Both the position numbers and the translations under genes were made by a program. A stretch of 64,000 nt of DNA, taken from assembly GCA_020050685.1 (NCBI GenBank), contig JAGVKG010000029.1:186001-250000 (forward strand). The letters run 5' to 3'. The stretch comes from Candidatus Obscuribacterales bacterium. GTDB lineage: Bacteria > Cyanobacteriota > Vampirovibrionia > Obscuribacterales > Obscuribacteraceae. Positions within the stretch are counted from its first letter, which is position 1, and each line of letters opens with the position of its first letter. Under the pieces are notes generated by a model. It searched no databases and was not told where the DNA came from. It saw only the letters and a list, made by a program, of their open reading frames with translations. Of this stretch, positions 2,723 through 11,909 are shown piece after piece.

Positions 2723-5455
2723 ATGTCAATTCATTTGGAGCGTGGGGACGATGGGCAGGTTTCTTTTTACATCAACGGAGATCTTCAGTTCGATAGTCGC
2801 GATGAGCGCATCTATCACGAATCTTTAGCACTGCCACCACTGGCACTGGCAGAGCGCAGAAAAAATGGTTTTATTCGGGCATTGATAATTGGCGGCGGAG
2901 ATGGACTAACGGCACGCGAATTACTCAAGTCCAAACGCGTTACAAGCGTAGACTTAGTCGACTATGACTTTCGTGTTCTCAATTTGGCACAGAATGAGTT
3001 TGCCGCGCTGAATGATGGCTCGCTATTTGATCCACGTTTGAAAACCCACATTGACGATGCTTGGAACTACGTGGAAAAGGCCATTGCTGACGGGATCACC
3101 TTCGATCTGATTGTTTCCGACTTAACTGTGCCGGAAGATGCAATTGGTGCACGCATGCACTCAATTGAGTGGTATCAGATGCTCAAGAAAGTATTGTCTG
3201 CCAATGGCACCATGTCGATCAACACGGTTTCGCCATCCGCAACACCAGATGCGTATTGGTGTGTTTTGCACAGCATATTATCGGCTGGTCTTTTTGCGCG
3301 CCCCTATCGCATTCACATACCTTCGTTTGCTGCCAAAGGATATGGACTTGATTGGGGTTTTGTTCTGGTTTCGAATACACCTATATCCAGCTATGAATTT
3401 GAGAGCCATTTCCATTTAGCTCGCCCACGCTTGGAATTAACCGATGTTCAACAGCTACGCAAGCTCTTTGCCTTTCCCGAAGAGTTCGTTGCTTATCAGC
3501 CATCCTCACGCCCGGCAAGCCAAGCAAGCGATATTCTCTTGCACTATTTCAACAATGCAGAAGAACTGATAGCAGAATCTGGTGCCAGTTGGAATTCTCT
3601 TGATTTTGATTTCCGCCGCGTGAACGTACCCAGTCCCGACATCAATAAATATTTAGTCCCACGCGAAGTACGCGCCTTATTATCAACTCCGGTTGTAACG
3701 CCTGCAGAGGAAGAAGAATTACTTGGTCGTGTACTTGATTTGATGCCGGCCTTGCATCGTTTCCAGACGCGTCAAATGGTTTCTGAATTTCTCGAATCGC
3801 CGGAATCCTTCTTGAGAGCAATTGATTTGCAAGCCTTGGTATCACGACTTTTGCAACGAGCCTCGGAATTGCCACAAAAATTAGTCGAGGAATTGCAGCA
3901 CTTAAGTGAGCATGTCCGCGATTTTACAGGCGACTACGATGGTCTACTGCGCCTAGGCATGCGAGTCTTATCCATTGTCACTCTGGTTGTGGTTGTCGGC
4001 AACTTGCTTTATCCAGACAGTGTTTATGGTAAAGGCGAACATGGCGGGGGTCACACAAGTGGTGGCGCAGGACGCGGAGGCGATCGCGGTGCCGGCAATC
4101 GTGCAGGTGATCGCGCAGGCGATAGGGGATTTGACAGAGGGCGAGGTCTTGACCGCGGCTTCAACCGTGGATTTAATCGCGACTGGGGTCACCGTGCTTG
4201 GTGGGGGCACTACGGGCAGTGGCACCACTGGGGCAATTGGGGTTACTGGGGTTGGGCCCGTCCTGCATATTCCTGGGCTTATGCACCATGGTGGGGTCCA
4301 GCCTATCCGCTAGGTACAGGCTACGTCAATCTCAATTTTGGTAACGGACAATGCGTTGACGAACAAGGTAACAACTATCCGGCTCGCACCTACGGACTGG
4401 CTGATACCAGTGGTGCCGATATAACCAACACCGGCGTGCCAATGCAAACAAGTGTTACGCAGAAAATGACTGGTGATTATCGTCTGAACACAGGCGCAGA
4501 CATTCTTGCCAATGGTAATGTGGCCATTCCGCTCACCGATACTTCTTATATGCTTCTCACAGCCCAAGCAACCAATGTTGTTGATCAAACAAGCGGACAA
4601 ACAATTGTTGCCTTGTACAACGATCCGGCCTTGATCCGCCAAACAGCCATGGAAATTCGCCGGCAACGACGTTCCTTACAAAGAGCGATCAAGAAAAAGG
4701 AAGCCTCACAATCACAATCTGATTCCATGACATTCCAAAGTGGCAATCAACAAAATCAAGATGCCAATCAAGCACCAGCCTCCCCGCAAGAAATAGACAA
4801 TCTTAAATCAACGGTTGCCTTACTGAACAAGTCCTTACATTCATTAGGTCAACCACTGACCTTGGCTCCTCAAGGTGCCGGACAAGGTGATGAAACTCCT
4901 CATCAAGGTCAAGGGCAAGCGGAACGTGAAGAACTTGGACCGACACAACCGCCGGTGCCTGGTGCAATCGAGTTGATGTCGTCTGTCTGGATGTTGCAAG
5001 ATGGCAAATTTCTTGTGCTGAAGCTTGCCGACGGCAGCTTAGCTTATCTCAACAACAAGGGTTGGTATTTAGACCAAGGTGTGACACCACTCAAACATCC
5101 ATTCCCTCGCAATTTTAAAAATGTTAGTCAAGCCTTCATCGCCAAGATGGTTAAGGATAGCGATGCAGAAAAATCCAGCATGACTCAAGATTTAAATGAC
5201 GGCAAGCAAGAATTAGCAGCACTCAATCAAGATCTGGCCGACTATGAAACTGGTCCACAAGATAGCGCCAATAACGGCGACGATGACAAAGTCGATTTTG
5301 GTCACGAGCAAATCCCGAGGTCAGAAGCGATACGCCGAACCAAAGTACAAATTGCTCTCACCCAGAGAAGAATCGATGCGATTCAATCTCAGTTCAATTC
5401 ATTGCCACAAGAGCTGGCTGTCAGTCAAAAAATGCTGCAGACACTTCAAAGTTAG
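2723..5455 (+). CDS. Spermidine synthase-like domain fused to membrane/extracytoplasmic module
   Basis: The 910-residue protein begins at an ATG after GGGAG. Residues 1-230 form a SpeE-type aminopropyltransferase/methyltransferase domain. They show the 'DERIYHE' block at 27-33, the AdoMet loop GGGDG at 57-61, an acidic strand end 'VDLVDYD' at 76-82, and DDA at 111-113. The catalytic block reads 'SDLTVPED' at 132-139. Canonical SpeE has D-x-T-D-P there; the first Asp (133) is kept but the second is Val136. Residues 230-410 are helical. A signal-like hydrophobic segment follows at about 413-435, then an RG/GD-rich repeat (440-490), a Trp/His-rich tract (490-523), a globular part and coiled coils to the end. 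A bacterial SpeE is about 290 residues, so this is a fusion. SpeD lies two genes downstream and would supply decarboxylated AdoMet. An internal start at 3959 could make the C-terminal half alone. Confidence 0.75.
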   Translation: MSIHLERGDDGQVSFYINGDLQFDSRDERIYHESLALPPLALAERRKNGFIRALIIGGGDGLTARELLKSKRVTSVDLVDYDFRVLNLAQNEFAALNDGSLFDPRLKTHIDDAWNYVEKAIADGITFDLIVSDLTVPEDAIGARMHSIEWYQMLKKVLSANGTMSINTVSPSATPDAYWCVLHSILSAGLFARPYRIHIPSFAAKGYGLDWGFVLVSNTPISSYEFESHFHLARPRLELTDVQQLRKLFAFPEEFVAYQPSSRPASQASDILLHYFNNAEELIAESGASWNSLDFDFRRVNVPSPDINKYLVPREVRALLSTPVVTPAEEEELLGRVLDLMPALHRFQTRQMVSEFLESPESFLRAIDLQALVSRLLQRASELPQKLVEELQHLSEHVRDFTGDYDGLLRLGMRVLSIVTLVVVVGNLLYPDSVYGKGEHGGGHTSGGAGRGGDRGAGNRAGDRAGDRGFDRGRGLDRGFNRGFNRDWGHRAWWGHYGQWHHWGNWGYWGWARPAYSWAYAPWWGPAYPLGTGYVNLNFGNGQCVDEQGNNYPARTYGLADTSGADITNTGVPMQTSVTQKMTGDYRLNTGADILANGNVAIPLTDTSYMLLTAQATNVVDQTSGQTIVALYNDPALIRQTAMEIRRQRRSLQRAIKKKEASQSQSDSMTFQSGNQQNQDANQAPASPQEIDNLKSTVALLNKSLHSLGQPLTLAPQGAGQGDETPHQGQGQAEREELGPTQPPVPGAIELMSSVWMLQDGKFLVLKLADGSLAYLNNKGWYLDQGVTPLKHPFPRNFKNVSQAFIAKMVKDSDAEKSSMTQDLNDGKQELAALNQDLADYETGPQDSANNGDDDKVDFGHEQIPRSEAIRRTKVQIALTQRRIDAIQSQFNSLPQELAVSQKMLQTLQS

Positions 5456-5465
5456 GATGTGAACT

Positions 5466-6539
5466 ATGGACAAATTAGAAGTTCGCATCTTGGAGAATCT
5501 TGAATCCGATTCAGAGCTTGCACTGAATTGGGAATCACTTGTGCAAACTGACCCATCCTCCGGATTCATGCAAAGCCTAAATTGGGCAGAATTCAAAGGT
5601 AAGCAAGGTCTACGCCAATTTCATCTTGGATTATTTGCTGGCGAGAAATTGGTAGGCGGAGCCTTGCTTTATGGAGTGGCCGAAAGTTGCGGAGCTGGCA
5701 TTCTTGTTGCACCCGAAGGGCCAGTGCTGCCCTGGCACGATCAGGAATTAGCGTCAAGTGGCATGAAGTTGCTAATGCAGACAATTCAAAGTAAAGCCAA
5801 AGAACTTGGTATTATGGCGGTTCGCATCATTCCCAAAGTTCCTATGCCAATTCCTCGATGCTTGCGTGGCTTTGGCAAAGCGCCTGTAGATCTTTTGGAA
5901 AGTGAAACACTTTATTTGGATGTGAGCCAGAAAGAATCACAACTGTTAGCAGCAATGAAGCCGAAGGGTAGATACAATATCGGACTTTCCGAGCGTCATG
6001 GAGTGACGGTTGATATTCGCCAAGAGCCAGTTGCAGTTAGGGACTTTTACCCGATCTTCAAAGAAGCTTCTAGCAGAGATGACTTCCGCATCGAGCCACT
6101 AAATTTCTTTATTGACCTGGCTGATACGCTATGCCCTAAGGGAATAGCGCACTTTCTTTTTGCCAAACATGAAGGTGAAACACTAGCAACCATGTTGCTT
6201 GTCACCTATGGTGACAGAGCCACTTACTTATATGGTGGCATAAGCAATGGCAAGCGTAATCTCATGGCCGGCTATGCCCTGCAATGGGCAGCAATCAAAC
6301 ATGCTCAAGCGCTCGGCTGTACGACCTATGATTTTTACGGCTTCGATCAACATTGCGCACCAAGCAGTGCTTACGCGCAATTCTCCAGATTCAAGAGCAA
6401 CTTTGGTGGGCAGGTAATGCGATTTATCGGTGCTCACGACTTTTACTTCGTAGACAACTTAGCAGACGCAATAATTCGAGCCACAAAAGAAATAAATCTC
6501 GCTGAATGCTCGCAAGATGTGCAAGCAGGAGCAAGGTAA
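5466..6539 (+). CDS. FemAB/FmhB-like aminoacyltransferase (GNAT fold)
   Basis: The protein has 357 residues and starts at an ATG 10 bases after the previous stop. Members of this family transfer amino acids from aminoacyl-tRNA to lipid II or peptidoglycan stems, and related enzymes act on other acceptors. Visible signatures are 'KPKGRYNIGLSERHGV' in mid-protein (the typical K-x-R-x-N-I-x-x-A-x-R-x-G-V pattern), then 'ATYLYGGIS', 'MAGYALQWAAIKHAQALG' and 'YDFYG', which form the second acetyltransferase-like lobe. Length matches the family (330-420). It is packed between the spermidine-synthase fusion and speD, with one base separating it from speD. This suggests one transcript and a link between polyamine supply and cell-wall or envelope acylation (inference). 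Acceptor and donor are not predictable from sequence. Confidence 0.8.
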   Translation: MDKLEVRILENLESDSELALNWESLVQTDPSSGFMQSLNWAEFKGKQGLRQFHLGLFAGEKLVGGALLYGVAESCGAGILVAPEGPVLPWHDQELASSGMKLLMQTIQSKAKELGIMAVRIIPKVPMPIPRCLRGFGKAPVDLLESETLYLDVSQKESQLLAAMKPKGRYNIGLSERHGVTVDIRQEPVAVRDFYPIFKEASSRDDFRIEPLNFFIDLADTLCPKGIAHFLFAKHEGETLATMLLVTYGDRATYLYGGISNGKRNLMAGYALQWAAIKHAQALGCTTYDFYGFDQHCAPSSAYAQFSRFKSNFGGQVMRFIGAHDFYFVDNLADAIIRATKEINLAECSQDVQAGAR

Positions 6540-6540
6540 C

Positions 6541-6945
6541 ATGCAAGAGATTAAATCCCAGAACCCACAACCAATAGAAGTTAGATCTGAGGCTCCGGTA
6601 TACGAAGCGCAAGGCAAACATTTACTCCTGACACTTAGCGGTTGCGCATCGAAGCTCCTCGACAGTGAGCAATACTTACGCGGTGTTGCCCGCAATGCTG
6701 CCATTGCTGCCGGCGCTACCGTTTTGCAAGTTTTCTCCCACAAATTTTCGCCCCAAGGGATTACTGTCTTAGTTGTTTTGGCTGAAAGCCATGCCAGTCT
6801 GCACACCTATCCGGAATCCGGCGTCGTCTTTTGGGATTGTTTCACCTGCGGCCATACATGCAAACCGGACCGCAGTGCCCAGGTGCTAATTGACACACTT
6901 ATCCCAACTCACATAGATAAGCAAATCATATTACGTAGTGGTTGA
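6541..6945 (+). CDS. speD: S-adenosylmethionine decarboxylase proenzyme
   Basis: I chose ATG 6541 over the in-frame ATG 6517 because AGGAGCAAGG sits just upstream of it and it follows the femAB-like stop by one base. The 134-residue protein is a prokaryotic AdoMetDC. The self-cleavage site lies in 'AESHASLHTYPE', with processing expected between Glu82 and Ser83 to give the pyruvoyl group. His88 and Cys103 ('FTCG') fall at the same spacing as His68 and Cys83 of the Thermotoga maritima enzyme. The product, decarboxylated AdoMet, is the aminopropyl donor for spermidine synthase, whose domain is encoded at the head of this operon. The N-terminus is about 20 residues longer than the minimal family member. 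Confidence 0.95.
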   Translation: MQEIKSQNPQPIEVRSEAPVYEAQGKHLLLTLSGCASKLLDSEQYLRGVARNAAIAAGATVLQVFSHKFSPQGITVLVVLAESHASLHTYPESGVVFWDCFTCGHTCKPDRSAQVLIDTLIPTHIDKQIILRSG

Positions 6946-7002: not shown

Positions 7003-7174
7003 TACGAAACAAGGGCTTGCCTTTTGATAAAGGCGGTTTAATATTGTAAACCCGCATCTCAAATGACTCTGTGTGCGAATCGCGTGACCTCTGTTGAAGA
7101 CAGCTGGTCGTTGGCTTTATGCGTATTTCTCAACACCGGTTGCCTCTCCAAACTTCCTCGGAGGTAGTAACTTT

Positions 7175-8431
7175 ATGCCGACTAGCCCAACTTTTGAAGG
7201 TTTCATTCCAGAAGACCTTTCCGAAAAATCGACTACCGCGCCTTCTGACCAAAATCCACCAAATCGATTTAAGAGACTCGTTCAAGAACAGAGCGAGAAA
7301 GCCAGCCAAAAACTAGCTGCCGATTCATATCAGAAAGAGTTACCCAAGCATGCGGAAGAAAGCCCCGCCAAGATTTACGCCAAGACCGACCAACTGATCA
7401 TGCCTAGCTTGCCTTACGAGCGGCGCCATTTTCCCACTCCAGGCGAGGCTTCGTCCATACGCAATGGATTTAAGAGTTTGCGAATTGCCGTTGAAGAAGA
7501 CAGGTTCGATCAAAAAATCCACGACATGGTCATATCCGGGCAAATCGACAAGGATGTCTACCACTTTAGCGATTGGGTAGACCCGAAAACCGTACGCAAA
7601 TTAGGACATGCAATCATTGAAGGAAATATCAGCCGTGCCAATGAAATCATCAGTCAAATTAAAGACAAGGAAGAAGTAAAACGCACAATTGCAGTTTTAC
7701 AAAACCTTGGTCTAGTGCAAAAAGATCGTCCTCCCATCAGACCAGATGAGAACAAAGAGGCAAAAGCTCCCTCCAAGTGCGATACGGAAGTCAAATCTAT
7801 AGAAGTCAAATCAATCAGTGATAAGACAACTGTCAAAGAAGAAAACAAAAGCGATAAAACATCCATTGAGCCGCGCAAAGAAATTAGTCAAATGATGGGC
7901 ACCTGGCGCACTTTGGACAATTTGTCAAAAGAGTTAGAAGGAACCGGGCAGATCAAACAAGCGCAACTTTTAACCATACAAGATCTTCACGGTCAAATTA
8001 ATCGTTTAAATGAAGATCCTGGTGCCAGACCGTACCACTATGCCTGTCTAAAATACATGGCCAATAACTTCGGCCGTTTAGCAAATGCATCATTGTTGGA
8101 TGGCACACCGGTGATTTCCACTGATCGCCTCCAAGCAAGAGTAGATAACCTTCAAGAAGAATTACTGGTCAAACTCGTAACCCAGTCGTCACGCGAGAAA
8201 TTTCCCAAACAATACATCGAACAATTTCAACAACTTTTGCCAGCAGACACTATTCAGAAGAATCCTCAAATGCTCGAAAGAATCAATGCCGAATTACGCA
8301 AGCAGAAATCTGCTTACCGCATTCAAGCCTTGCTGCAAAACACCTCGTATTATTTGGATCAACCAAAGCAAGTGATTATCAAGCTTCTAAACACTAAAGG
8401 CAATTGGCTTGACAGTCTAACTTATCAATAG
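7175..8431 (+). CDS. Unknown hydrophilic, helical protein
   Basis: I place the start at ATG 7175, which has GGAGG at 7160-7164; an in-frame TTG at 7094 would add 27 residues without a good ribosome site. The 418-residue product has no signal peptide or membrane segment, so it is probably cytoplasmic. The first 70 residues are Pro/Ser/Lys-rich and likely disordered. A helical domain follows (about 70-190), then a charged Lys/Glu/Ser linker (about 190-235), then a second mostly helical domain to the end. I recognise no family. It stands alone, convergent with the glycosyltransferase pair and separated from speD by 229 bases, so context gives no firm clue to its job. Confidence 0.7.
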   Translation: MPTSPTFEGFIPEDLSEKSTTAPSDQNPPNRFKRLVQEQSEKASQKLAADSYQKELPKHAEESPAKIYAKTDQLIMPSLPYERRHFPTPGEASSIRNGFKSLRIAVEEDRFDQKIHDMVISGQIDKDVYHFSDWVDPKTVRKLGHAIIEGNISRANEIISQIKDKEEVKRTIAVLQNLGLVQKDRPPIRPDENKEAKAPSKCDTEVKSIEVKSISDKTTVKEENKSDKTSIEPRKEISQMMGTWRTLDNLSKELEGTGQIKQAQLLTIQDLHGQINRLNEDPGARPYHYACLKYMANNFGRLANASLLDGTPVISTDRLQARVDNLQEELLVKLVTQSSREKFPKQYIEQFQQLLPADTIQKNPQMLERINAELRKQKSAYRIQALLQNTSYYLDQPKQVIIKLLNTKGNWLDSLTYQ

Positions 8432-8450
8432 TCTGGCCATTAATAGAGAA

Positions 8451-9566
8451 TCAGCCTGGCAAGCTTGCCACATACTGGAAAATGTTTTCCGGAGGAATGT
8501 TGATCATGCATTCATTGGTGCCAAATCGACAAGTATCCTTATGACAGGGCTGACAAGGCAGTTTGTTCTGGCAAGCAAAAAGCTTGATCTCTGAGTCACC
8601 AACTGGTGGAGTGCGAAACTGAGAAGTTGCCCCGTACAATCCGACCACATGGGGCACTTTTGAGGCACCGGCAATGTGTAATGGCGCACTGTCCGGTCCA
8701 ATTGCTACGTGGACATGTTTGTAAATTGCATACATCTCTGGGATTGATGTCAGTCCAGCTAAATTGATCAACCGTTTGTCGATTTCCTTTTGATCAAAGC
8801 CTTTAAGAATCTCCTCAATCAGGGGCAAATCTGATTTCGCCCCAACCATGACCACATTCATATCGATATCGCTAAGTACTTGCTTAAGCAATCTCTGCCA
8901 ATATTCAATTGGCCAAAATTTGCTTGACCATTGCGTCCCTGGTGCCAAAGCCACTACCTTTGCTGGTCTTGCAAAAGCATTCTTCAGCAAAGATTCAACC
9001 TTCAGTTCGACTTCCGTCGATAGAGTTGGCAATTGCAATGACAGTTTGGACTTGTCACCTTCACTTATCTTTTCACCATCAAGGGCGTGAGCTAGTATTC
9101 TAAAGTGTTCATGATGTAGTTTGTCATGATCAAAATATTCTTTGTATGAAACATATTTTTCGGTATAGAAAAAGCCACTCAATTCTCGGCCGTGAGCCAG
9201 ACCAACCCGACGCTTGATCCCTGATAAACCAGCTATGACTGCGGTTTTCAGAAGTCCTTGCATATCAATTACGACATCATAATCACAAGCCTTTATTTCG
9301 GCAAAGAATTTGCCCATCTCCTCTGAAATCTCTGTCCAGCGCCCGGGATTTGCCAGTGACTTGAGCCAGCGTTTTTGAAAAATATGTATTCTGTCTATTT
9401 GTGGATGACCGGATATGGCTGGCGCCAGTTCGGCATTGATCACCCAGCCAATTTCAGCATCAGGATGATTTGTTTTCAGTAACGGCAAAATACAAAGTGA
9501 TTGAATTACGTCCCCAAGAGCGCTTAGACGAACCACTAGAATTTTCTTTGGTCGGTCAGACATCAT
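8451..9566 (-). CDS. GT9 family glycosyltransferase (ADP-heptose:LPS heptosyltransferase-like)
   Basis: ATG at 9566 overlaps the upstream TGA in an ATGA junction and has AGGAAGG about 9 bases before it; a TTG at 9575 would add three residues. The 371-residue protein opens with 'ILVVRLSALGDVIQSLCILP', the N-terminal signature of RfaF/WaaC/WaaF. The C-terminal nucleotide-sugar domain shows 'VVALAPGTQWSSKFWP', then 'LINLAGLTSIPEMYA', 'AIGPDSAPLHIAGA' and 'VVGLYGATSQFRTPP', all classic GT9 blocks. A short Cys-rich end ('CQPCHKDTCRFG') is seen in some family members. The likely role is adding heptose or a similar sugar to the LPS core at the inner membrane. It is translationally coupled to the GT2 enzyme upstream. 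Confidence 0.88.
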   Translation of the reverse strand: MMSDRPKKILVVRLSALGDVIQSLCILPLLKTNHPDAEIGWVINAELAPAISGHPQIDRIHIFQKRWLKSLANPGRWTEISEEMGKFFAEIKACDYDVVIDMQGLLKTAVIAGLSGIKRRVGLAHGRELSGFFYTEKYVSYKEYFDHDKLHHEHFRILAHALDGEKISEGDKSKLSLQLPTLSTEVELKVESLLKNAFARPAKVVALAPGTQWSSKFWPIEYWQRLLKQVLSDIDMNVVMVGAKSDLPLIEEILKGFDQKEIDKRLINLAGLTSIPEMYAIYKHVHVAIGPDSAPLHIAGASKVPHVVGLYGATSQFRTPPVGDSEIKLFACQNKLPCQPCHKDTCRFGTNECMINIPPENIFQYVASLPG

Positions 9567-10336
9567 GTTTGGCAACCTTCCTGCAAATTGCGCAAATAGC
9601 GAATTTTACGACGCACGTAATCGCTATAGATCAACTGCAATTGCAAACCAAGTTGCCCGTCTAAAAATCCGCCGCGTAGGATGTAACGATAGAAAAAAGT
9701 CCACCAAGGATGAACCAGTTCATTTAGCCAATGTGTTTTGGCTGGATTGAAACCATCAGCCAAGGCTTGCTTGGCAGAAAGGTGAGCATACTTTTCCATA
9801 GTTTGACTAAACTGTTCAAGATTGTCGTAAGCCATATTTCTCAGCGGATGCTTGAGATGACCAATACGCCCGTCAACGGCGAGAGACTCATGCACCAGGC
9901 GATTTTTAAATTTACCTGTTCCTCTTTTGAATAAACGCAAATGCGCGTCCGGATAAAAGCCACCATGGGTAATACCAGTATCACCAACGAATAAAATACG
10001 TGGCACGGTAAAACCTTCGAAACTTTCCAGCAAATCACTTTTAAGAACAGATGAAATCTCGGCAACCAGCTCTGGTGTCATAATTTCATCAGCATCTAGA
10101 CTCAAGATCCAATCGCAAGTGGCAAGACCAATGGCATAATTTTTTTGTGGTCCAAAGCCCAGCCAATCTTGATGATAGAATTTGACGCCATAGTTCTTGG
10201 CAATTTCGGTTGTTCTGTCCGTAGAGCCAGAATCAACGAAAATAATCTCATCAGCGATTGGTTTGCACGCGGAAAGCACCTGGCCGACGCCACGTTCTTC
10301 ATTGCAGGCGATGATTACTACCGAAAGTGTGGGCAT
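9563..10336 (-). CDS. GT2 family glycosyltransferase (WaaE/KdtX-like)
   Basis: With ATG 10336 the product is 257 residues and begins 'MPTLSVVIIACNEE', the usual family start. In-frame ATG 10378 and GTG 10390 would add a hydrophobic lead and no ribosome site decides clearly. The GT-A fold is shown by 'FVDSGSTDRT', the metal-binding 'SLDADE' and 'PRILFVGDTGITHGGFYPD', then 'RLFKRGTGKFKNRLVHE'. This pattern matches the WaaE/KdtX group, which adds glucose or a similar sugar to the inner LPS core. A hydrophobic/aromatic C-terminal segment (around 'LVHPWWTFFYRYILRGG') probably contacts the membrane. It overlaps the GT9 gene by four bases and the two form an LPS-core operon on the minus strand. Confidence 0.85.
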   Translation of the reverse strand: MPTLSVVIIACNEERGVGQVLSACKPIADEIIFVDSGSTDRTTEIAKNYGVKFYHQDWLGFGPQKNYAIGLATCDWILSLDADEIMTPELVAEISSVLKSDLLESFEGFTVPRILFVGDTGITHGGFYPDAHLRLFKRGTGKFKNRLVHESLAVDGRIGHLKHPLRNMAYDNLEQFSQTMEKYAHLSAKQALADGFNPAKTHWLNELVHPWWTFFYRYILRGGFLDGQLGLQLQLIYSDYVRRKIRYLRNLQEGCQT

Positions 10337-10516
10337 TAGCACTACCAGGGCGCAGATGATAAGCGCCAGCCACCTCATGACAAGGTGCACTCAGAGGAAC
10401 AACAAGTCGCTATTTTACAACGTCTCAAGCCAACGATCCTTATTGCCATTCAAGGACAATGACAACATTATGACAACTTCACGTTGAGCCATCGTTTCGA
10501 TGAGTTCTTTTGAGCG

Positions 10517-10558
10517 TGATAACCTATACGCCGTATTTGATAACCTATAGGTTATCAA
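10517..10558. promoter_or_regulatory. Perfect 22-bp palindrome plus upstream half-site, operator candidate
   Basis: TTGATAACCTA at 10537-10547 is followed directly by its exact reverse complement at 10548-10558. A further half-site, TGATAACCTAT, lies at 10517-10527, 20 bases away in direct orientation. AT-rich and without a T-tract, it does not look like a terminator. It sits about 200 bases upstream of the glycosyltransferase pair and just after the end of the next minus-strand gene, a position suited to a dimeric repressor or activator of the LPS-core genes (inference). Confidence 0.5.
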
Positions 10559-10601
10559 CCAAATCGGACACGTGCCGACTCTCCTCGCGCAAGCCTTTTA
10601 T

Positions 10602-11909
10602 TTAAAGAACAGAATTGCTGCCTAGGATCTTTTCCGCCAACTTGTTTTCAGCATTGCCTGCTTGTTGCATGTCTTTGCAGATACCTTGGGCTTGCTCAGC
10701 AATTATTTTTCTTTGGCCAATCAAATCACCAGTGGCAACTGCCTGCTTAAGTGTTTGATAACGACTGTTTACATCGGACACTAGCCCATTCAGATCGCCT
10801 AAGGCTTCTCCTGCAGCCGGCACCTTTTGAGCCGGTGCTTGCAGCTGCTGCATATTATTTTGTACAGCCTTTATGTACTCATCCATTTGAACCATACGCT
10901 TTTTTACATCATTCATCTTCATATCGATATAAGGTGAATGTTCGATGCGTGCGTAATCTTTCGCTTGCGGACCCATCACAAGCCAGCCTTGATTTTGAGC
11001 ATCCGAAACAAAGGCGTCAAGCGGATCTAACTCAGTGGCATTGTCGTGCAGATACTGGGCAATCACACCCAACCAATGTGCATCTCTACCGAACAATCGC
11101 AATTGTGTAATTACTTGCACCGTTTCCGGAGTGGAATCCTTCAAGTTGATAATCCGAAAAATTGTCTTCAGATCGTTATCGATTGTGGAAATAAATTTGC
11201 GAATGTCGACAAGTTTGGCTGCCGTCATTTCTGCATCAAATGCTTTGCTAGAGCCAATTTGCGTGGAAATCAAAGCGTAGTCGGCCATCACCGCTTTCAT
11301 TGTATTTTCTGCATCGGCAACTAGTGGTTCAAGATCTTTGGCTTTATCTTGCGGAATATCCAATGATTGGACATCACCATTGATCACTTCCAACAAATTG
11401 CCAATGTTTTGAATTGACATCACCACATACTTAGTGCGCTGTTCCGTAAAGTGTCCACTATAAATTGCAAATTTAGGAGTAGCCAGGGTCACCGGATAAG
11501 TGGAAATTGCTGGCAGCAAAACCGGGTAAGAAATATCGATCATTTTGTCTTCCAAAAATTTGGTTAGATCGTTGATTTGTCCGCCCAGAGTATCGGAGAC
11601 ACGCTGAATCTGACTAAGCGAGACCAATGAGCGCACAACTTTACCTTGCATAGTTGGCGGCAAGCTAACTTGAGTTGTTGAACTATTGGATGACACAGAT
11701 GGACTTTGGTTGGCTTGCGATTGTTGGCTTTGATTTCCGGATGTTTGCCCTGAATTAGGCTGACCTTGCGGTGACTGACCTTGCAAATAATCCTTGGGAA
11801 CTTCCACAGCTTGGGCCAACACTGGCAGACCACCAAGACCGATTCCCGGTAGATTCAAGACCAGAACACCCACGCCTACATAACTACCAATATTCTTCTT
11901 CAGTTTCAT
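10602..11909 (-). CDS. Unknown exported helical protein
   Basis: ATG 11909 has GCGAGG upstream and starts directly with a signal peptide (Lys-rich n-region, hydrophobic core, 'VLAQA' cleavage site near residue 33), so the longer in-frame start at 11987 is unlikely. The 435-residue product then has a Gln/Ser/Asn-rich linker (about 40-85) and a mostly alpha-helical remainder with several heptad-like stretches, such as 'MNDVKKRMVQMDEYIKAVQNN'. No cysteines occur in the mature part before 'GICKDM' near the C-terminus. I recognise no family. It is transcribed away from the glycine-zipper gene and toward the glycosyltransferases. An exported, periplasmic or outer-membrane-associated protein is the most that can be said. 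Confidence 0.75.
   Translation of the reverse strand: MKLKKNIGSYVGVGVLVLNLPGIGLGGLPVLAQAVEVPKDYLQGQSPQGQPNSGQTSGNQSQQSQANQSPSVSSNSSTTQVSLPPTMQGKVVRSLVSLSQIQRVSDTLGGQINDLTKFLEDKMIDISYPVLLPAISTYPVTLATPKFAIYSGHFTEQRTKYVVMSIQNIGNLLEVINGDVQSLDIPQDKAKDLEPLVADAENTMKAVMADYALISTQIGSSKAFDAEMTAAKLVDIRKFISTIDNDLKTIFRIINLKDSTPETVQVITQLRLFGRDAHWLGVIAQYLHDNATELDPLDAFVSDAQNQGWLVMGPQAKDYARIEHSPYIDMKMNDVKKRMVQMDEYIKAVQNNMQQLQAPAQKVPAAGEALGDLNGLVSDVNSRYQTLKQAVATGDLIGQRKIIAEQAQGICKDMQQAGNAENKLAEKILGSNSVL

Follow-up and report, generated by a model that had tools for sequence, protein, structure and literature searches.

Does a gene that joins a spermidine-synthase domain to a membrane and extracytoplasmic module encode a real protein, and which reaction would it catalyse with an active site that reads DLTVP? 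The locus belongs to a Candidatus Obscuribacterales bacterium and lies in a window of 64,000 nucleotides, the whole stretch of DNA that was analysed. Positions 2723–5455 form a single uninterrupted frame of 910 codons, from the ATG at 2723 to the stop at 5455, with GGGAG upstream of the ATG. The protein begins with a SpeE-fold domain, followed by a conserved helical linker and a single hydrophobic segment with a motif that resembles a signal-peptidase site; it ends in a module predicted to be exported (Table 1). Scans for promoters and terminators gave counts no better than in shuffled sequence. A DUF1574 protein (1349–2563, barely above the cut-off) is encoded directly 5′ on the same strand, at a position that is not conserved in relatives.

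The N-terminal domain has the fold of aminopropyltransferases. PF01564 matched residues 29–208 (E = 1.2e-22) with 80.9 bits, above the curated cut-off of 22.9. The best NCBI model was NF002956 (PRK03612; E = 7e-60), aligned only with its catalytic half, profile positions 263–516, and with a score of 202.9 bits against a cut-off of 472. The equivalog cut-offs of TIGR00417 speE (82.9 vs. 249.55 bits) and NF002010 (110.2 vs. 260 bits) were not reached either. A structure model of residues 1–440, built from 26 family sequences, had a mean pLDDT of 81; the catalytic core was mostly above 90 (blocks mostly 85–98), and values fell to about 50–77 in the linker and membrane segment. Foldseek retrieved aminopropyltransferase structures down to E = 1.8e-18 (1uir, TM by target 0.69), and all 50 listed PDB neighbours were aminopropyltransferases, including 1uir, 3anx, 6bq2, 7xif and 3o4f. 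The strand-rich region that usually serves oligomerisation at the N-terminus is mostly missing.

Table 1. Features of the fusion gene and its neighbours in the window, and related reading frames elsewhere in the host genome.
Feature	Position	Strand	Basis or remark
Aminopropyltransferase (SpeE-fold) domain, residues 1–260	2723..3502	+	PF01564, NF002956 catalytic half, Foldseek
DLTVP, residues 133–137	3119..3133	+	Asp133 kept, second Asp replaced by Val136
Asn167	3221..3223	+	Asn in family (43/43), Gln in comparison aminopropyltransferases (61/61)
Conserved helical linker, residues ~340–405	3740..3937	+	Conservation across phyla; helices in model, moderate confidence
Single hydrophobic segment, residues 411–429	3953..4009	+	Hydropathy
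PDSVYGKG, residues 431–438, resembling a signal-peptidase I site ([VAT]-x-[AG]/K, cut at the slash)	4013..4036	+	Conservation; free module of L053
Low-complexity RG/GD-rich and Trp/His-rich tract, residues 438–528	4034..4306	+	Composition
Extracytoplasmic module (predicted), residues 541–910, beta-rich part and long helices	4343..5452	+	Relatives; model
FemAB/GNAT-fold aminoacyltransferase gene	5466..6539	+	PF02388 E = 5e-34, PF13480 E = 9e-14
speD, S-adenosylmethionine decarboxylase	6517..6945	+	PF02675 E = 5e-30; TIGR03330
Six further PF01564-like ORFs	G000: C46:14335, C4:128034, C11:52369, C35:26285, C26:81876, C53:118644		

The fusion is real and evolutionarily conserved. A search of related genomes found the same protein with 40%–50% identity in many genera of the host's family, with two copies per genome in at least two genomes (G013 and G025). 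A scan of public genomes added Herpetosiphon aurantiacus (complete genome), a second member of the Herpetosiphonaceae, Armatimonadota, Geomonas and the Cyanobacteriota Calothrix, Nostoc, Sphaerospermopsis, Stenomitos and Leptolyngbya. The block up to residue 437, comprising the linker, the hydrophobic segment and a PDxxY/F[AG]KG-like motif, is conserved in all these relatives. Family counts refer to loci among the matches listed, and some genomes occur in both collections. In a tree calculated by a quick method and without bootstrap, all 26 family sequences included grouped in a single clade (SH-aLRT 100), with 7TM-SpeE next to it and canonical SpeE apart. The sequence-only reading had proposed SpeE motifs fused to a membrane and extracytoplasmic module and had asked for the same fusion in other genomes; the single frame, the PF01564 match and full-length orthologues of the same architecture in several phyla bear it out. 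Neither a frameshift or stop between two genes nor orthologues that are always split are compatible with this conservation. An assembly or gene-calling artefact that joins two genes is refuted by the orthologues and is extremely improbable: several contigs of relatives stop inside the low-complexity tract, a sign that assembly is hard there, but full-length fusions with 40%–50% identity occur in many genomes, one of them in the complete genome of H. aurantiacus.

For a comparison of active sites, 43 distinct family domains (identical sequences removed) were aligned with 58 7TM-SpeE and three canonical SpeE. Asp133, the GGGDG motif, Glu28, Glu33 and Trp211 are kept in every sequence. The donor-site residues are also retained in the family, with D80 in 42 of 43 domains and a conserved D/E112-A113 pair. 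The acceptor side differs. The second Asp of DxTDP binds the amine in known aminopropyltransferases. Position 136 is Asp in 61/61 comparison sequences (58/58 7TM-SpeE and 3/3 canonical SpeE) and never Asp among the family matches listed (0/43; V 28, A 4, Y 4 and F 4, also W, C and H). The reading of DLTVP as a site with the first Asp kept and the second replaced by Val is thus correct, and because the second Asp is absent from 43/43 family members and from 0/61 relatives, the change is far from chance. Position 167 is Asn in all 43 family members among the matches listed and Gln in the 61 others. Loss of the second Asp and the exchange of Gln for Asn are coupled, family-wide changes on the acceptor side and diagnostic of the clade.

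The exchange of Asp for Val alone was rejected as proof of a new acceptor. Human spermine synthase, a true polyamine enzyme, also lacks the second Asp; it reads DLTAVP at the aligned site and keeps the Gln at the position-167 site (FTQGN). Its active-site residues are D201 and D276 (PMC3585406), and by residue count D276 is the first Asp of DLTAVP. Given this precedent, a site without the second Asp may still accept a polyamine. A DxTDP motif with both Asp, used as a criterion for polyamine aminopropyltransferases, is found neither in the fusion nor in the human enzyme and is no absolute requirement.

Strongly hydrophobic windows of 19 residues are confined to residues 406–434 of the fusion, and residues 411–429 have the maximum mean hydropathy of the whole protein (2.12 over 19 residues). 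Only hydrophobicity underlies the predicted topology. In the preceding linker, P342, R379, P384, L391 and L394 are invariant or nearly so across phyla; around the end of the segment, N427, D432 and K437 are invariant in 26 sequences from several phyla. The following RG/GD tract (residues 438–488) and Trp/His tract (residues 487–528) vary strongly in length and composition and are poorly conserved among relatives. A search for nucleotide-level DNA repeats in the RG/GD tract found none. For the C-terminal module, long helices were predicted and the model reached a pLDDT of 77.7; a comparison with the PDB yielded no match at E ≤ 0.001, only a coiled-coil resemblance to prefoldin. The signal-like segment, the two tracts and the coiled coils described from the DNA were all recovered as hydrophobic windows, compositional tracts and predicted long helices.

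The part behind the conserved block differs between lineages. The large module of about 370 residues is present in many Obscuribacterales, in Herpetosiphon and in Armatimonadota members; other Obscuribacterales have shorter tails. Members from Cyanobacteria and Geomonas lack the large module; their short tail is rich in Gly and Ser and contains another hydrophobic stretch. One genome (locus L053, 6488–7789, minus strand) encodes the large module free-standing, without the SpeE-like part, as a predicted secreted protein; a separate C-terminal module was found in this genome only. Its N-terminus resembles a signal peptide, RRRALVSIALLALTISILPEPADA|RG, at the place equivalent to the motif of the fusion. 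This signal-peptide-like start supports export of the module and an origin of the internal segment from a signal peptide. We infer that the hydrophobic segment tethers the enzyme and exports the C-terminal module, perhaps with a cleavage of the chain after residue 436.

A secondary start at ATG 3959, at the beginning of the signal-like segment, had also been suggested. This internal start was rejected. Few of the 26 aligned family members have Met413, which makes ATG 3959 unlikely as a used start. A clear Shine-Dalgarno sequence was not seen before it, and the conserved linker begins well upstream of Met413.

The genomic context adds two enzymes. A FemAB gene starts 10 nt 3′ of the fusion gene. 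Its product is above the cut-off of PF02388 (118.2 bits, cut-off 24) and below the NCBIfam equivalog cut-offs, and the closest solved structures are of the FemX/FemA type (1ne9, 1lrz and 6snr). The substrates of functionally known FemAB members are lipid II or UDP-muramoyl peptides. Among the matches listed, 33 of 34 inspected loci (overlapping copies excluded) from several phyla have the FemAB gene directly 3′ on the same strand, with −13 to 177 nt between the fusion end and the blast-defined FemAB start. As the gene is the sole copy in the host genome, chance adjacency is negligible. The speD gene overlaps the FemAB gene by 23 nt. Its product is above the TIGR03330 cut-off (109.1 bits, cut-off 75.65), and the translation contains ESHASLHTYPE...FTC with Ser, His and Cys and the Pro of HTYPE. 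A SpeD gene is near the fusion–FemAB pair in 15 of the 34 loci among the matches listed, so it is not next door everywhere. The window encodes a 445-aa protein 3′ of SpeD (7094–8431) without significant match in Pfam or NCBIfam; it is not conserved beside the operon in relatives.

Among the matches listed from Cyanobacteria and Geomonas, the pair has a DUF4178 gene upstream in 10 loci and a DUF350 gene downstream in 8; in Armatimonadota, a DUF2617 gene lies upstream. These neighbours were confirmed with Pfam on example loci. Searches for DUF350 and DUF4178 in the host genome were negative, so the link of the host operon to operons with these genes goes via relatives. A DUF350 match was located shortly 3′ of the second fusion–FemAB pair of an Obscuribacterales genome (G025:C3:6166–6369), a link between the gene order of cyanobacteria and the form found in Obscuribacterales. 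In Herpetosiphonaceae, two related small proteins (about 124 and 280 aa), neither with a significant family match, are encoded after FemAB (L083 10529–12020 and L084 10567–12055); that of L083 sits between FemAB and SpeD.

The host genome encodes a second SpeD homologue on contig C35, together with agmatinase and deoxyhypusine-synthase-like (DHS-like) genes (L155, G000:C35:20000–32159, 8315–10821). The agmatinase is above the TIGR01230 cut-off. The best model of the DHS-like protein is ‘homospermidine biosynthesis protein’, with a score below the cut-off; DHS-like genes are present in 31 of 40 genomes of the host's family. The C35 cluster corresponds to a gene set of SpeD homologue, SpeB and SpeY described for homospermidine formation with an arginine-decarboxylating SpeD; one Pro separates true S-adenosylmethionine decarboxylases from the arginine decarboxylase (PMC10407285). 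The Pro of HTYPE in the window SpeD is taken to be this diagnostic Pro by its presumed position; the C35 protein has HTFAE there. Other PF01564 matches in the host genome are six weaker ones, SpeE-like domains in much larger proteins encoded by ORFs of 700–1265 aa, and no other close SpeE or 7TM-SpeE was found in it. Judged by gene content, the true S-adenosylmethionine decarboxylase and the only close aminopropyltransferase of the host are thus located in the fusion operon, and its bulk polyamine is probably homospermidine from the separate C35 cluster.

These observations suggest, with about even confidence, a tethered aminopropyltransferase whose acceptor is bound to the envelope or membrane and whose product is also acted on by the FemAB enzyme. 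The proposed scheme is inferred in its catalytic activity, acceptor, order of steps, topology and cleavage; donor binding and catalysis are read from residue conservation only. SpeD of the operon would make decarboxylated S-adenosylmethionine. With Asp133 as base, the cytoplasmic N-terminal domain would transfer the 3-aminopropyl group. Its acceptor would not be a free diamine but most likely a molecule bound to the membrane or envelope and able to fit into a pocket that lacks the amine-binding second Asp. Held at the membrane by its hydrophobic segment, the enzyme could share its substrate with the FemAB-type enzyme, which would add an aminoacyl group, possibly onto the new primary amine. The near-constant FemAB neighbour and polyamines seemingly made otherwise suggest that the function is probably envelope decoration rather than the making of spermidine. 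A different acceptor or a regulatory role at the membrane had been proposed from the DNA. A different acceptor is plausible and better supported by the FemAB neighbour in 33/34 loci, the coupled exchange of Gln for Asn and the separate homospermidine-type cluster; a role in regulation alone is disfavoured, as the catalytic Asp and the motifs for donor binding are fully or almost fully conserved.

The strongest rival is a membrane-bound but ordinary polyamine aminopropyltransferase, acting for instance on homospermidine or putrescine and lacking the second Asp like human spermine synthase. This is unlikely but has substantial arguments: the DLTAVP of the human enzyme at the aligned position with D276 as an active-site Asp (PMC3585406), a host that probably makes homospermidine and has SpeD in the operon, and several bacterial aminopropyltransferases that use homospermidine in E. 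coli tests (PMC11107197). The near-obligate pairing with FemAB has no evident role in the making of free polyamines, though, position 167 is Asn in all members whereas the human enzyme keeps Gln, and the nearest relatives are 7TM-SpeE proteins. A catalytically silent SpeE-like sensor of decarboxylated S-adenosylmethionine or methylthioadenosine, signalling across the membrane to the exported module, would explain conserved donor-site residues beside changed acceptor residues and the single membrane segment that connects both parts. It is improbable, since a sensor need not keep Asp133, which is present in 43/43 domains, and cyanobacterial members without the large exported module have nevertheless retained both the enzyme domain and the FemAB gene.

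In a further reading, signal peptidase would cut after residue 436 and release an independent module, and the fusion would serve co-expression of two unrelated products only. The resemblance of the conserved PDxxY[AG]KG to a signal-peptidase I site and the free module of L053, predicted to be secreted, agree with this. The linker and the hydrophobic segment are nevertheless among the most conserved parts, even where no large module follows, and two unrelated products appear quite improbable. This reading is compatible with a tethered aminopropyltransferase and does not exclude it.

The closest known system is 7TM-SpeE/PRK03612 (NF002956) of the DUF350–DUF4178–PspA operons. Its catalytic domain is the nearest one and the sister in the tree, it is membrane-linked, and the neighbours DUF350, DUF4178, DUF2617 and SpeD recur in several phyla of the fusion family. 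The membrane part of 7TM-SpeE is N-terminal with seven segments; that of the fusion is C-terminal and single-pass. The fusion further differs by loss of the second Asp and the Gln, the FemAB partner, the exported module and a score below the NF002956 cut-off. The SpeD–SpeE operons with DUF350 and DUF4178 were proposed to affect membranes, either by monitoring polyamines or by aminopropylating other substrates (PMC11237479, citing Li et al. 2019). Canonical spermidine and thermospermine synthases (PF01564; 1uir, 3o4f and 6bq2) share the fold, donor-site motifs and catalytic Asp, but not the acceptor residues, the short N-terminus, the fusion or the genomic context. Human spermine synthase (3c6k) shares loss of the second Asp with the first kept; it is distant (profile E = 8e-7), keeps the Gln and is a soluble dimer with its own N-terminal domain. 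The adjacent gene product belongs to the same family as the FemX/FemA aminoacyltransferases (1ne9, 1lrz and 6snr). In the openly readable literature, a search found no paper on the pairing of FemAB with an aminopropyltransferase or on FemAB, aminopropyltransferase and SpeD together; subscription papers such as Li et al. 2019 may describe this link.

Polyamine-independent S-adenosylmethionine decarboxylase operons are known from neighbourhood analysis, and the aminopropylated substrate was not identified in the literature searched. For the clade of the fusion, the label ‘spermidine synthase’ given by automatic annotation is likely wrong. The family offers a tractable case: a minimal set of three genes (SpeE-like, FemAB and SpeD), an active-site signature (D136 lost, Q167 to N) open to mutational tests, and members in culturable organisms or complete genomes such as H. 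aurantiacus, Calothrix and Nostoc. Tentatively, the pair may perform a two-enzyme tailoring of the envelope: the tethered enzyme would place an aminopropyl group on a membrane lipid, a lipid-linked precursor or a cell-wall peptide, and FemAB would then add an amino acid as a cap or extension. This would be a chemistry not yet described, possibly shared by Obscuribacterales, cyanobacteria, Herpetosiphon, Armatimonadota and Geomonas.
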